Assembly (NCBI RefSeq): GCF_014196455.1
Contig: NZ_JACIDS010000001.1
Location: 620,001 to 684,000 of the forward strand
Source of the DNA: Kaistia hirudinis
GTDB taxonomy: Bacteria; Pseudomonadota; Alphaproteobacteria; Rhizobiales; Kaistiaceae
DNA length: 64,000 nucleotides
Reading direction: 5' to 3'
The first letter of the stretch is position 1, and the number at the start of each line of letters is the position of its first letter. Shown piece after piece: positions 30,167-34,923 of the stretch. Under the pieces are notes generated by a model that was not told the origin of the DNA, did no database searches, and saw nothing but the letters and a program-made list of their open reading frames with translations. Made by a program: the position numbers and the translations under genes.

Positions 30167-31243
30167 TCACATTCGGGTTGCGCGGGCGAGCATGGTCAGT
30201 GTCGATAGCACGAATTGTTTGCGGTCGAGGTTGAGCGCTTCGACCTCGGCCGAAGCGACGCGGACCTTTTCCCACACCTCCGCCCAGCTCGCAAGCGGGA
30301 CGGCCGCCGCCGCGGGGGGCAGAATCCCGAGTTCCGGCGGCTCGGCCTCTCCCCTCGCCCGCCGCGCCAGCCAGTCGAAAACCAGGTCCTGGAAACCCTC
30401 GAACGCCTCGTCGGCGCCGCGCTGGCCCACGAGGTCGCCGAGCGCATGCGCGGCCGCGGCATTGAGCGTCGGCACGCTGGCGATCGCGCTCGAAAAGGCG
30501 CGGCCTATGGCGGCCATGTCCTCGTCCAGGAAGCGGATCGCACGGCGGAGGCTTCCCCGCCCCGCTTCCGCCGCGAAACGGCGCAGCTCGGCCGAGGCAT
30601 CCGCATGTTCAGTCAATGCCGTCTCGATCGCGTCCACCGAAAGTGGCGCGAGGTCGAGCCGGCGGCAGCGCGAGCGGATGGTGGGCAGCAATCGCCCCGG
30701 AGAATGGGAGAGGACGAGGAACAGCGAGCGCTTCGGCGGTTCTTCAAGAATCTTCAGCAACGCATTGGCAGCGTTGACATTCATGTCATCGGCCGAATCG
30801 ACGATGGCGATACGCCAGCCGGCCTCGCCCGCCGTCGAACCGAAGAAGGGGATCGTACGCCGCACCTCGTCGATCGAGAGCGAAGCGAGGAAGCGCTTGT
30901 TCTTCTCGTCATAGGGACGCGACAGCGTGAGGATGTTGGGATGCGAGCCGGCGGCGATCTTCCGCGCTACGGCCGTCTCCGGCGACACCGCCAGCGTCGC
31001 GGCATCGGGTGCGCGCGCGGGATCGGGATGCGTCAGCGCGAAGCGGGCGAAGCGATAGGCGAGCGTCGCCTTGCCTATGCCCTTGGGCCCGCCGATCAGC
31101 CAGGCATGGTGCATGCGGCCGCCGCGATAGGCCTCGACGAGCAGGCGTTCAACATCGCTGCCGCCATACCAGTCGTTCTGCGCCTCCGGCAGCGCCCAGC
31201 CGTCGATCGCGTCCGGCGCGAGAGCTTCGGGTGCTTCCGCCAT
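30167..31243 (-). CDS. holB: DNA polymerase III subunit delta'
   Basis: A 358-residue AAA+ clamp-loader subunit. [20 protein letters not shown] contains the P-loop (GPKGIGKAT). The sensor/Walker B area reads [13 protein letters not shown] and [20 protein letters not shown], the hallmark of delta'. The C-terminal part forms the collar. Its start overlaps the tmk stop by one base (TGATG), the standard alphaproteobacterial coupling. The AAA+ zinc-module cysteines are not obvious, which is common in delta' of this group. Confidence 0.93.
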
Positions 31244-31890
31244 CAGACCGTCTCCGCCGTTGGCAGCAGCCGAACCTCGACCGCCTTCCAGATGTCGGCC
31301 GCGACGTCGTCCTCCGGCCGGGAGGCGTCGATCACGACGCAGCGGCCGGGATCGCGACGCGCGATCTCGAGGAAGGCCTGACGCCGCTTTTCGTGACGGT
31401 CGAGCGTCTCGCGCTCAAACCGGTCGGCGACATCCCCCTCCCCGCGCCGCCGCGTGGCGCGCCCGAGCCCGATCTCGACCGGCAGGTCCAGGATGATCGT
31501 GAGGTTCGGGCGAACCGCGCCCACGGCCAGATGCTCAAGCGCCGCAAGCAGCTTCTCGTCGACGCCATCGCTGCCCTGATAGGCGCGGGTTGAATCGAAG
31601 AAGCGATCCGACAGCACCCACTCCCCGCGCTCCAGCGCCGGGCGGATAACGCGATCGACATGATCCGCCCGCGCCGCCGCGAAGAGGATGCTCTCGCCCT
31701 CGACGCCGAGGCCGATCGCCTTGCCCGAGAGGAGAAAATCGCGGATGCGCTCGGCCGTCTCCGTCCCGCCCGGCTCGCGCGTCACCACCACGTTCGCGCC
31801 GCGCTTGCGCAGCGCCTCGGCGAGCCGGCGGATCTGCGTCGACTTGCCGGCGCCCTCGCCGCCTTCGAATGTCACGAACTGTGCCTTCAC
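31243..31890 (-). CDS. tmk: Thymidylate kinase
   Basis: A 215-residue dTMP kinase. The P-loop is FEGGEGAGKSTQ, the DRX motif appears as VLSDRFFDSTRAYQG, and the lid segment is ATRRRGEGDVADRFE. GTG 31890 is chosen: the TGAGG of the upstream stop region is eight bases before it and the protein then starts just ahead of the P-loop strand. The ATG at 31935 would overlap the carboxypeptidase gene by 35 bases. It is ten bases downstream of the D,D-carboxypeptidase homologue and coupled to holB. Confidence 0.94.
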   Translation of the reverse strand: MKAQFVTFEGGEGAGKSTQIRRLAEALRKRGANVVVTREPGGTETAERIRDFLLSGKAIGLGVEGESILFAAARADHVDRVIRPALERGEWVLSDRFFDSTRAYQGSDGVDEKLLAALEHLAVGAVRPNLTIILDLPVEIGLGRATRRRGEGDVADRFERETLDRHEKRRQAFLEIARRDPGRCVVIDASRPEDDVAADIWKAVEVRLLPTAETV

Positions 31891-31900
31891 AACCGGTGCC

Positions 31901-33064
31901 TCACAGCCAGCCGATGAGCAACTGGCCCACCGCATCGATGGCCCGCTGGCTCATGCTGCCGACGCCGACCGCTTCGGTCGTGAACACCGGCTTTTCGAAC
32001 ACCTTGTCGTCGTCGGTCCAGACGCGGATCACGCCGACCTGCTGATCCTTTTTCACGGGCGCGACCAGCGGCCCCGTATAGATCGCGCGGGCCCGAATGG
32101 GCGCGCGCACGCCCTTTTCGATCAGCACATCAAACGGCTCATGCGTGGCGAGCGGCACGGTGCCCTTGATGCCGCCGAAGACGCGGGCGTTCGCGACCGG
32201 ATCGCCGGCGGCGAAGAAGCGCACGCGCTCGAAGCCGCTGCCGGCGTAGCCGAGCAGCCGCTTCGCCTCATCCGTCCGGTCCTTCTCACTCGGCAGGCCC
32301 GCCACCACCAGCGTCGTTCGATGGCCGTCCTGGACCGCGGATAGCGTCATGCCGAAGCCCGCTTCCGGCGTCGAGCCCGTCGAGAGGCCATCGACGCCGA
32401 GCCCTGCCCCGAGCAGTGGATTGCGGTTGCGCTGATAGATCTTGTTCCAGGTGAAATCCGGTTCGGCGTAGATCTTGTAGAGTTCGGGATGGTGGGTGAT
32501 CAGATAGTCGGCGATCGTCGCGAGATCCCGCGCCGTCGCCTTCTGTGCCGGATCGCCGAGGCCGGTCACATTGGCGAAGGTGCTGCCCGCCAGACGCAGC
32601 GCGCTCGCCTTGTCGTTCATCCGCCGTACGAAAGCCGCTTCGGAGCCGGCAATGCCCTCGGCGAGGATGAGGCAGGCGTCATTGCCGGCCTGGACGATGG
32701 CGCCGCGCAGAAGGTCCGAGACGGGAACGGAGGATTTCAACGCCGCGAACATCGTCGCGCTGCCGGAAGGCGCCCCGCCCGTCCGCCAGGCGTTCTCGCT
32801 CACCGGAAAGGTCTGATCGAGCGAGATCTCGCCGGCCGCGATCGCATCGAAGACCACCGCCATCGTCATCATCTTGACCATGGCCGCCGGATCGAACGGG
32901 ATGTCGTCGCCCTTGCGATAAAGCACCGCGCCGGAATCCTCGTCGATCAGGATGGCGTAAGGCGCCTTGCTGTCATAGCCCGCGGCGAGCGCCGGCAGCG
33001 CGCTCGCCGTCAAGACGGCGAGAGACACAGCGAGGCGGCGAAAGGCAGGACCGATCGAAGGCAT
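31901..33064 (-). CDS. PBP5/DacF-family D,D-carboxypeptidase homologue lacking catalytic residues
   Basis: A 387-residue exported protein. Signal peptide ends near ALPALAA; the S11 peptidase domain spans about 30-280; a PBP5 C-terminal beta domain and an amphipathic C-terminal helix (RAIDAVGQLLIGWL) follow. All three active-site motifs are recognisable but altered. SxxK reads A61-M-V-K64 (DPAAMVKMMT), SxN reads A126-G-N128 (VQAGNDA), and KTG reads S228-T-G230 (DGLSTGST). The nucleophilic Ser, the second catalytic Ser and the Lys of KTG are therefore all missing, while the fold-defining residues remain. The frame is intact, so a non-catalytic peptidoglycan-binding or regulatory role is likely. 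An ATG at 33085 is an alternative start. Confidence 0.88.
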   Translation of the reverse strand: MPSIGPAFRRLAVSLAVLTASALPALAAGYDSKAPYAILIDEDSGAVLYRKGDDIPFDPAAMVKMMTMAVVFDAIAAGEISLDQTFPVSENAWRTGGAPSGSATMFAALKSSVPVSDLLRGAIVQAGNDACLILAEGIAGSEAAFVRRMNDKASALRLAGSTFANVTGLGDPAQKATARDLATIADYLITHHPELYKIYAEPDFTWNKIYQRNRNPLLGAGLGVDGLSTGSTPEAGFGMTLSAVQDGHRTTLVVAGLPSEKDRTDEAKRLLGYAGSGFERVRFFAAGDPVANARVFGGIKGTVPLATHEPFDVLIEKGVRAPIRARAIYTGPLVAPVKKDQQVGVIRVWTDDDKVFEKPVFTTEAVGVGSMSQRAIDAVGQLLIGWL

Positions 33065-33162: not shown

Positions 33163-34629
33163 TCAGCGCGTCATCACGAAAGCGCCGCGTGCACCCGCAT
33201 CGGCGACGGCCTTGAGGGCCTCGTCGCTCTGGGTCGTCGGCGGCAGGACGAGACGCACGGCCTGCATGCTGCGGCCGTTGATCGAAATCGGCAGCACGCG
33301 CACATGACCGAGCGATGCGAGCTTCGTGCCCATCGCGGCCGCATTGTCGGCGCTGGCGAAGACGCCGACCTGAATCTCGACGAGATCGGCGCTGCGTTCG
33401 GCGGCGCGCCGGGCGATCGCCTCGTTGAGCGCGAGCTGCAGCTTGTCGCGGCGCGGAGCGGCCATGGTCTCGGCGGCGATCTGGGCCGGCGAGAGCAGCG
33501 CGTCCTCGGCATAGGAGGAACGCGCCGACCGCGGCGTCTGGCTCGAATACCCGTCGCCGGTCGCAGCGTTCGCTTCCGGCGCGTAGCCCACGGGCTCGGA
33601 CAGCGTGTAAGTGCCGAGGAGCCGCTCGCCATAGTTCGAGCCATTGGCCGGAGCCGCATCGCCGGCCGCGGAGGCCTGAACGACCGTCGGCTGGGCAATG
33701 GCGGCGGGCGCGACATCGTTGCGCGCCACGGCAATGGCCGCAGGCGCGGCCTGGCGGGCGGGCGCGACGTCGAGCGACGCCGCCTGGATCTCGTAATTGT
33801 AAGGGTCGATGGCCAGACCGCCATCGACGCCGGGGCGCGAGCGCGGGATCGGCACCATCGCGAGGACGACGGAGGGCTGCGAAGTCGGCGCTTGCAGCTT
33901 CGGCCGCGCCGACGGCGACTGCAGCGCGATCATGGTGTCGGCAGCCGGCATGCGGCGGAGCGCCGGCGTCGGGACGCCCGTGCGCGGCGGCACATAGCTC
34001 GCCAGCAGCATCTGTCGGTCATGGCCTTCCATCCGGGCCGGGCCGACATATTCGACCTTCACCTTGGCCGAGCCGTGATGCCGGACGTCGAGCAGTTCGG
34101 CGGCGGTGGCCGAGAGGTCGATGATGCGGTCGCGCTCATACGGTCCGCGATCATTGACGCGGACGATGATCGAGCTGCCATTCTTGACGTTGGTGACGCG
34201 CGCATAGCTCGGCAGCGGCATGGTCGGATGCGCAGCCGAGAGCGTGTCCATGTCATAGACTTCGCCATTGGCGGTGTACCGGCCATGGAAGGCCATGCCG
34301 TACCACGAGGCGTAGCCGACCGCCGTGTAGCGCTTGTCTTCCTTCGGCGTATAGACGCGGCCCTTCACGGTATAGGACTTGCCGACCATGTAGCGGCCGC
34401 CGCCCTGCGGAACCGGCTGGCCATATTCGACCACGCGCGGGCTGGCCTTCACGCCATACTTGCTCTCGGGAAAATATTCCGAAGACCGCTTGGTCGGGGC
34501 CGGCGGCTTGTTCGCGCAGGACGCGAGAAGCACCGCTGCGGAAAGCAAAAGAGCCGATTGGACCGCCCGCTTGCGGGCAGACGATCCGACGCGCTTGGTA
34601 CGCATGACTGAAATTGCGCTCGTCCCCAT
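33163..34629 (-). CDS. rlpA: RlpA-family septal lipoprotein with SPOR domain
   Basis: A 488-residue protein. A lipobox (LLASCANK, acylated Cys at about residue 38) follows a basic N-terminus and hydrophobic stretch. A double-psi beta-barrel domain reads ASWYGMAFHGRYTANGEVYD, RVTNVKNGSSIIVRVNDRG and DRIIDLSATAAELL. A long Pro/Ala-rich linker leads to a C-terminal SPOR domain (VEIQVGVFASADNAAAMGTK) that binds denuded septal glycan. RlpA proteins are lytic transglycosylases or septal structural proteins. ATG 34629 has GAGGA six bases upstream. Its neighbour is the inactive carboxypeptidase homologue. Confidence 0.9.
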   Translation of the reverse strand: MGTSAISVMRTKRVGSSARKRAVQSALLLSAAVLLASCANKPPAPTKRSSEYFPESKYGVKASPRVVEYGQPVPQGGGRYMVGKSYTVKGRVYTPKEDKRYTAVGYASWYGMAFHGRYTANGEVYDMDTLSAAHPTMPLPSYARVTNVKNGSSIIVRVNDRGPYERDRIIDLSATAAELLDVRHHGSAKVKVEYVGPARMEGHDRQMLLASYVPPRTGVPTPALRRMPAADTMIALQSPSARPKLQAPTSQPSVVLAMVPIPRSRPGVDGGLAIDPYNYEIQAASLDVAPARQAAPAAIAVARNDVAPAAIAQPTVVQASAAGDAAPANGSNYGERLLGTYTLSEPVGYAPEANAATGDGYSSQTPRSARSSYAEDALLSPAQIAAETMAAPRRDKLQLALNEAIARRAAERSADLVEIQVGVFASADNAAAMGTKLASLGHVRVLPISINGRSMQAVRLVLPPTTQSDEALKAVADAGARGAFVMTR

Positions 34630-34923
34630 CTTGCATCCTCGATAGCAGCAAGCGGCCAACCTGTCGACCGATCGCCGCTTCTGCGGCCAGAGCGTCCGGT
34701 CTGCGCAACACTCCGCTGCTGGCGGATCGCGAGGCCCGATACCCCAGAACCATAGACGTCCCCGGCACTTGAAGAAGCGTTAATGCGCCCTTGCCCGAAC
34801 CCATCAATTCCCGACAATCCCGTCGACCAATCATTATTGGTTAGCGCTTCGTCACCACGAGGCCGCGCCTTGTCGTGCGACCCGGTGCGACCCGGTCGGC
34901 GCCGATCGGACGGGATGCCATCA

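Follow-up and report, generated by a model that had tools for sequence, protein, structure and literature searches.

A putative PBP5-type pseudoenzyme of Kaistia hirudinis and the recurrent loss of catalytic residues at its locus across Hyphomicrobiales

The window analyzed here, 64,000 nucleotides of Kaistia hirudinis contig NZ_JACIDS010000001.1, carries a dac gene for a degenerate homologue of the PBP5-type proteins, which are textbook D,D-carboxypeptidases (Table 1). Homology places the product in the Peptidase S11/PBP5-type family: an S11 domain is followed by a PBP5_C domain, the sole PBP5_C match in the K. hirudinis genome (PF07943 genome search). The frame reads through from 33064 to 31901, as a preliminary description of this DNA had stated; its further claim that signal peptide, both domains, and C-terminal anchor are kept agrees with the Pfam matches, the model helix, and the signal recognized by eye. 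By analogy with PBP5, the helix at residues 371–384 would be a membrane anchor.

The predicted structure is that of a PBP5-type protein. The AlphaFold2 model, computed with a 30-sequence alignment, has a mean pLDDT of 87.2 and a pTM of 0.78, with the signal-peptide region falling within its low-confidence N-terminus. Foldseek against the PDB ranked E. coli PBP6 (3it9) first and E. coli PBP5 (1nzo) second, with TM scores by query length of 0.78 and 0.77. Scores fell short of the NCBIfam cut-offs for the DacA equivalog (212.0 bits vs. 694), the DacD equivalog (232.9 vs. 610), and PRK10001 (217.1 vs. 765), the last of which we take to be DacC.

Table 1. Features of the dac gene, its product, and its neighbors, in window coordinates
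Feature	Position	Strand	Evidence
dac, degenerate PBP5-type D,D-carboxypeptidase homologue, 387 aa	31901..33064	-	Open frame; Pfam; AlphaFold2; Foldseek
Signal peptide, about residues 1–28; hydrophobic core, then ALA-A	32981..33064	-	By eye
Peptidase_S11 domain, residues 31–256	32297..32974	-	Pfam 6.8e-63, 212.8 bits, above cut-off
PBP5_C domain, residues 278–366	31967..32233	-	Pfam 7.2e-18, 65.0 bits, above cut-off
C-terminal helix, residues 371–384	31913..31954	-	Model secondary structure; conserved in alignment
Ala61, replacing the nucleophile Ser of SxxK	32882..32884	-	Codon GCC
Lys64 of SxxK, kept	32873..32875	-	K in 284/287 copies
Ala103, fourth wholly replaced conserved position	32756..32758	-	Ser in 150/155 intact orthologues
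Ala126, replacing Ser of SxN	32687..32689	-	Codon GCC; A in 14/14 of Kaistia clade
Asn128 of SxN, kept	32681..32683	-	N in 284/287 copies
Ser228, replacing Lys of KTG	32381..32383	-	Codon TCG
Thr229-Gly230 of KTG, kept	32375..32380	-	Sequence alignment
rlpA, septal ring lytic transglycosylase family, upstream neighbor	33163..34659	-	TIGR00413 above cut-off
tmk, thymidylate kinase (name from the preliminary description), downstream neighbor; listed ORF overlaps the end of dac	31243..31935	-	Conserved downstream of dac

Each of the three catalytic motifs has lost one key residue. Ala61, Ala126, and Ser228, whose codons read on the minus strand exactly as first reported, align to the Ser, Ser, and Lys of PASxxK, SGND, and KTG (HMMER; P. 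aeruginosa PBP5, 4k91, and E. coli PBP6, 3it9); we take Ser44, Ser110, and Lys213 to be their equivalents in E. coli PBP5. Among the residues expected of an active enzyme, the SxxK Ser, the SxN Ser, and the KTG Lys are thus all missing, whereas the SxxK Lys, the SxN Asn, and the KTG Thr-Gly are present (K64, N128, T229, and G230). The earlier wording that the protein is stripped of all three motifs accordingly holds for one residue in each of them and goes too far in implying that any motif has been removed. Sequencing error as the source of the triplet is ruled out by identical residues in 13 further genomes.

The triplet Ala/Ala/Ser at positions 61, 126, and 228 is a fixed trait of the genus. 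It was found in 13/13 Kaistia genomes with an open copy (K. hirudinis included) and in Prosthecomicrobium pneumaticum, each time beside rlpA and/or tmk, which is the conservation that the preliminary description had proposed looking for. The Kaistia clade comprises 14 members and is supported at 100 and 99 in two FastTrees. All 14 have Ala at position 61 and Ser at position 228, vs. Ser and Lys, respectively, in 155/155 intact tmk-linked orthologues; K64, N128, T229, G230, S242, and R249 are likewise kept in 14/14. Residues conserved specifically in this clade are A61, A103, A126, V146, K152, V166, S228, H248, R282, F283, T307, K358, and M371; a relocated nucleophile has no clear new candidate among them. 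Throughout the Kaistia clade (14/14), Ser103→Ala goes with the catalytic losses, and other non-canonical lineages show partial relaxation at this position.

The frame is open in 13 of the 14 Kaistia genomes. The remaining one, a MAG of about 720 contigs (G006; locus L203, contig C105), has a frameshifted copy with three in-frame TGA codons; its pieces, read separately, likewise show A, A, and S, and the break is either real decay or an assembly error. In the wider family, 3/28 genomes (G019, G021, and G025) had no dac match at E 1e-60, and their near relatives have one. Given these three genomes and the frameshifted copy, the gene is dispensable in places. Two genomes of another family (f50) resemble the Kaistia triplet: L125 reads A/A/A and L179 A/A/S. 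FastTree separates both from the Kaistia clade and IQ-TREE joins them to it (SH-aLRT 91), so that A/A/S may have had one origin or two.

We compared the locus across the order using 315 gathered loci: three from an S11 family search of the K. hirudinis genome, 30 from relatives, the best 80 of 560 confirmed matches, 12 further loci, 80 picked regions, 30 loci, and 80 further picked regions. For the last 30 loci and 80 regions, 144 of 151 genomes had a match, and second copies from five genomes were included. Five loci were dropped, namely L001–L003 (a repeat of the K. hirudinis gene, plus two paralogues) and two records of the broken G006 copy, L114 and L203; the other 310 were merged into 287 distinct sequences. 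Locus sampling among the matches listed favors similarity to the K. hirudinis stretch.

Recurrent loss of the catalytic residues across the order is the main result, and it lies beyond what a first reading of one sequence could see. The 287 distinct Hyphomicrobiales copies (each >330 residues) divide into 162 canonical and 125 non-canonical, a biased sample that gives no estimate of frequency, and show 55 motif states, the canonical one counted. Loss affects the KTG Lys most often (121 copies), followed by the SxN Ser (93), the KTG Thr (52), and the SxxK Ser (30); 284/287 copies keep the SxxK Lys, and the same count holds for the SxN Asn and for the KTG Gly. Lineages differ in what they lost at positions 61/126/228: most Phyllobacterium copies are A/S/G, most Mesorhizobium S/A/A or S/A/V, Sinorhizobium sp. 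6-70 (L109) S/L/A, and Shinella S/F/V, with Breoghania reading S/N/K and KDG instead of KTG. The Bradyrhizobium, Methylobacterium, Bosea, and Rhodoplanes copies read are canonical. Among the 111 non-canonical copies outside the Kaistia clade, Ser61 is kept in 95, and position 228 is mostly G, A, V, or E. Another route of loss is seen in L032 and L153, which keep Ser61, Ser126, and KTG and have the SxxK Lys changed to Thr and the SxN Asn to Gly or Thr. A few odd states (e.g., L167, L185, and L192) may be misalignments.

Outside Hyphomicrobiales, all 20 sampled alphaproteobacterial orthologues, picked from the matches listed, are canonical and stand in the same rlpA–dac–tmk order. The ancestor therefore probably had canonical motifs and this synteny. 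With the motif columns left out of tree building, parsimony required 13 changes between intact and lost (FastTree), 12 (FastTree with outgroup), or 11 (90-row IQ-TREE), and the number of maximal all-lost clades, with no regain allowed, was 17, or 16 with outgroup. We put the separate losses across the order at about 11–17, a count that is approximate because 42 of the 87 inner IQ-TREE branches have support below 80.

The gene order itself is widely shared. With rlpA upstream and tmk downstream on the same strand, it was found in 259/287 copies; all 125 non-canonical copies adjoin one or both of these genes (both in 117). The six copies with neither neighbor are all canonical, one of them (L186) near a contig end. 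The preliminary description had taken the rlpA neighbor as pointing to septal peptidoglycan remodeling. The adjacency stands; the same arrangement, however, also flanks catalytically intact orthologues, including 20/20 outside the order. Since the linkage is probably ancestral and predates the loss, it argues, taken alone, only weakly for a scaffold role.

The other S11 proteins read in these genomes retain their motifs. Counting further DacA-type genes, as had been suggested, yielded two more S11 proteins in K. hirudinis, both canonical, and no second PBP5_C protein; the two paralogues rule out a genome-wide loss of S11 function. S11 paralogue copies read from 13 other Kaistia genomes were canonical in 20/20 cases. 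One of the two K. hirudinis paralogues, L002, has a C-terminal end that by eye resembles a SPOR domain. The L002-type paralogue, the only one whose motifs were read among the S11 matches listed, was canonical in 30/30 genomes selected because their linked copy is non-canonical. General compensation by a second PBP5_C protein is excluded, with a single match in 28 of 30 genomes and two in G360 and G442. The five Kaistia genomes tested (G000, G001, G004, G005, and G012) each have a single PBP5_C match, inside dac, and so by that search contain no motif-intact protein of PBP5 architecture.

A natural control comes from genomes with two copies. Some genomes of family f23 have unlinked canonical second copies in addition to a non-canonical one linked to rlpA and/or tmk (pairs L176/L294, L276/L277, L283/L284, L290/L291, and L243/L295). 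Two matches were found in 12 genomes among the matches listed; in the five for which both the linked and the unlinked copy were read, the linked copy was non-canonical and the unlinked one canonical (5/5).

Substitution patterns indicate purifying selection on the Kaistia protein. In the eight Kaistia-clade pairs with the lowest synonymous distance, dN/dS was 0.09–0.21; the clade median over 91 pairs was 0.27, and values among the 14 pairs printed reached 0.49 where synonymous distance was high and uncertain. The S11 domain is more constrained than PBP5_C (0.19 vs. 0.34). Seven intact relatives (21 pairs; dN 0.25–0.42, dS 0.57–1.24) gave ratios no lower than those of the Kaistia clade. Scaled to tmk, divergence was 1.01 in the Kaistia clade (14 rows), 1.05 in intact orthologues (40 rows), and 1.37 in the other non-canonical lineages (40 rows); the last value fits partial, or some wider, relaxation there.

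Loss is concentrated at the catalytic residues. Among 85 columns conserved in the 155 intact linked orthologues, the Kaistia clade shows complete replacement at four (61, 103, 126, and 228), and that three of the four are catalytic puts the loss beyond chance. The clade has also mostly replaced Leu184 (retained in 14%) and Tyr237 (29%). Eight of the 85 columns are relaxed across the other 111 non-canonical copies (103, 126, 218, 228, 229, 242, 249, and 274), three of them being motif residues, and 49% of these copies retain Tyr237. Retention over the 78 non-catalytic conserved columns is 94% in the Kaistia clade and 93% in these 111 copies. Column entropies of intact and other non-canonical copies have means of 1.48 vs. 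1.47 and a correlation of 0.85. Together, these patterns suggest that constraint was lifted mainly from the chemistry.

These observations bear first on whether the gene is simply decaying, with catalysis redundant and the gene on its way out. Recurrent loss speaks for such decay, as do the family genomes without a match, the broken copy in one Kaistia MAG, dN/dS values as high as 0.49 among the Kaistia-clade pairs printed, and, in the other non-canonical lineages, the faster tmk-scaled rate together with the eight relaxed columns. Yet among 312 collected loci of dac type only two records, both of the one broken MAG copy, fall below 331 residues; no pair shown reaches a dN/dS of 1, the genus is fixed for a single state, and most non-catalytic conserved columns are kept. 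The dN/dS values and the tmk yardstick, on which the Kaistia copies evolve at the rate of intact orthologues, reject simple decay for Kaistia, where the free variation with frameshifts named beforehand as its signature was not found; at a scaled rate of 1.37 it may apply to other non-canonical lineages. Taken overall, we regard decay as improbable. The original proposal of selection for a non-catalytic purpose is, by contrast, well supported by the fixed triplet, the 13 of 14 open frames, the low dN/dS, and a tmk-scaled rate equal to that of intact orthologues.

What the retained protein does can be approached through its lost chemistry. E. coli PBP7 is also an S11 protein. According to the available text on its variants, S67A, S124A, and K231A each abolish Bocillin binding (PMC11586513). 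With its nucleophile lost, and in light of these mutants, the Kaistia protein should not acylate, a prediction that we consider well supported. It may nevertheless be a non-hydrolyzing receptor whose cleft binds a D-Ala-D-Ala pentapeptide or lipid II without cutting, thereby reporting new peptidoglycan or masking it. Hydrolases whose nucleophile Ser is changed to Ala often retain substrate binding, and the six residues from K64 to R249 that persist throughout the Kaistia clade would suit such binding; however, the KTG Lys, which contacts the substrate carboxylate, is gone. Other non-canonical lineages moreover show relaxation at T229, S242, and R249, so that no constraint from ligand binding is common to all, and the three PBP7 variants failed to bind Bocillin in the text available (PMC11586513). 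A receptor is on balance unlikely, if worth keeping in view.

Two further readings fare less well. The fold could have been repurposed for a different hydrolase reaction, in which the nucleophile would be Ser228 or some other residue in Kaistia and Ser61 elsewhere. Such altered chemistry would account for the many other non-canonical copies that keep Ser61, for the near-universal Lys64, and for the constancy of Ser228 across the Kaistia clade, as against the G, A, V, or E that mostly occupies this site in other non-canonical copies. But Kaistia itself lacks Ser61, the two f50 genomes are split between Ala and Ser at position 228, which implies that Ser228 is not needed there, and the clade-specific conserved residues offer no obvious new catalytic residue; we hold this reading to be quite improbable. 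Scarcely credible is a β-lactam-insensitive decoy or resistance-related protein: without acylation machinery the protein would indeed be insensitive to penicillin, yet a protein unable to bind β-lactams would titrate none, and canonical S11 paralogues remain in the same genomes.

Our preferred reading is that the dac product is a recurrently evolved pseudoenzyme under purifying selection, as judged from sequence comparison: catalytic residues are lost, frame and predicted fold are kept, and dN/dS is below 1. The ancestor at the rlpA–dac–tmk locus would have been an active D,D-carboxypeptidase with an additional, non-catalytic role. In Hyphomicrobiales, other S11 enzymes may have covered the chemistry, allowing catalysis of the linked copy to be lost repeatedly, and the second role would maintain purifying selection on the remainder of the protein. 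The Kaistia protein would have lost all three residues on or before the stem branch of the clade; its folding, export, and anchoring should still resemble those of PBP5, without formation of an acyl-enzyme.

Most likely, the protein is retained as a periplasmic, membrane-anchored scaffold or regulator of wall remodeling, which would position or restrain active wall enzymes. The kept helix and fold and the place beside rlpA suggest this by analogy with degenerate LytM factors. The nearest candidate partners would be RlpA and the two active S11 paralogues, and the site may be the septum or the new pole. Taken as a whole—an ancestral second role kept, catalysis lost repeatedly, and a scaffold or regulator now—we give this explanation roughly even chances. 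Against it, the Ser61 kept in 95 of 111 copies means that some of them may be altered rather than dead enzymes. A broader proposition is put forward tentatively, at somewhat less than even chances: in Hyphomicrobiales, the PBP5 homologue linked to rlpA would be selected for morphogenesis and not for catalysis, as a structural or regulatory component of the wall machinery at the septum or new pole, and the independent natural mutants across the order would show that it can do without its chemistry but not without its scaffold. The accessible text of one study describes Hyphomicrobiales walls as unusually rich in L,D-crosslinks (PMC11527210); we conjecture that this richness may explain why one D,D-carboxypeptidase could lose its activity.

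New here is a degenerate form of a known family that evolved repeatedly. If many members of the order carry a selected non-catalytic version, annotations and wall-trimming models of unipolar-growing bacteria need correcting. Recurrent natural dead mutants, with intact relatives as controls, also allow the structural role of a low-molecular-mass PBP to be told apart directly from its catalytic one.

Within the literature searched, whose coverage omits most subscription papers, no title or abstract describes the motif loss. The closest annotated set is that of S. meliloti, for which the available text lists four putative D,D-carboxypeptidases (dac, SMc00996, SMc00683, and SMc00068), all with serine peptidase catalytic domains, and makes no mention of motif loss (PMC7327166). 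This set shares its order and annotation with the relatives studied here, among them Sinorhizobium sp. 6-70. Rhizobial annotated copies are counted there as putative enzymes, as far as that text goes (PMC7327166).

E. coli PBP5 and PBP6 (DacA and DacC) are like the Kaistia protein in their two-domain fold, motif positions, signal peptide, and C-terminal helix; they differ in having Ser, Ser, and Lys where it has Ala, Ala, and Ser, for which acylation is not expected. The PBP7 variants are changed at the same three motif positions as Kaistia, and in the portion of the report available their midcell localization survives the loss of penicillin binding, with the C-terminal helix needed for placement (PMC11586513). 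By the same partial account, cells of an envC mutant were shortened by overproduced wild-type PBP7 only and S67A was without effect, so the PBP7 function tested did need catalysis, which counts against a non-catalytic role (PMC11586513). These are, however, engineered single mutants of an endopeptidase, whereas in Kaistia a PBP5-type protein has changed naturally at all three positions.

Degenerate LytM factors, built on the M23 fold, differ from the Kaistia protein in that this fold is unrelated and in that they regulate amidases. As far as the available texts describe them, EnvC, NlpD, and likely AmcA of S. meliloti are such regulators of amidases (PMC8416486, PMC7822825). The parallel lies in the way of working: in these sources, a wall-enzyme fold without catalysis is kept as a regulator, an arrangement already known in Hyphomicrobiales.
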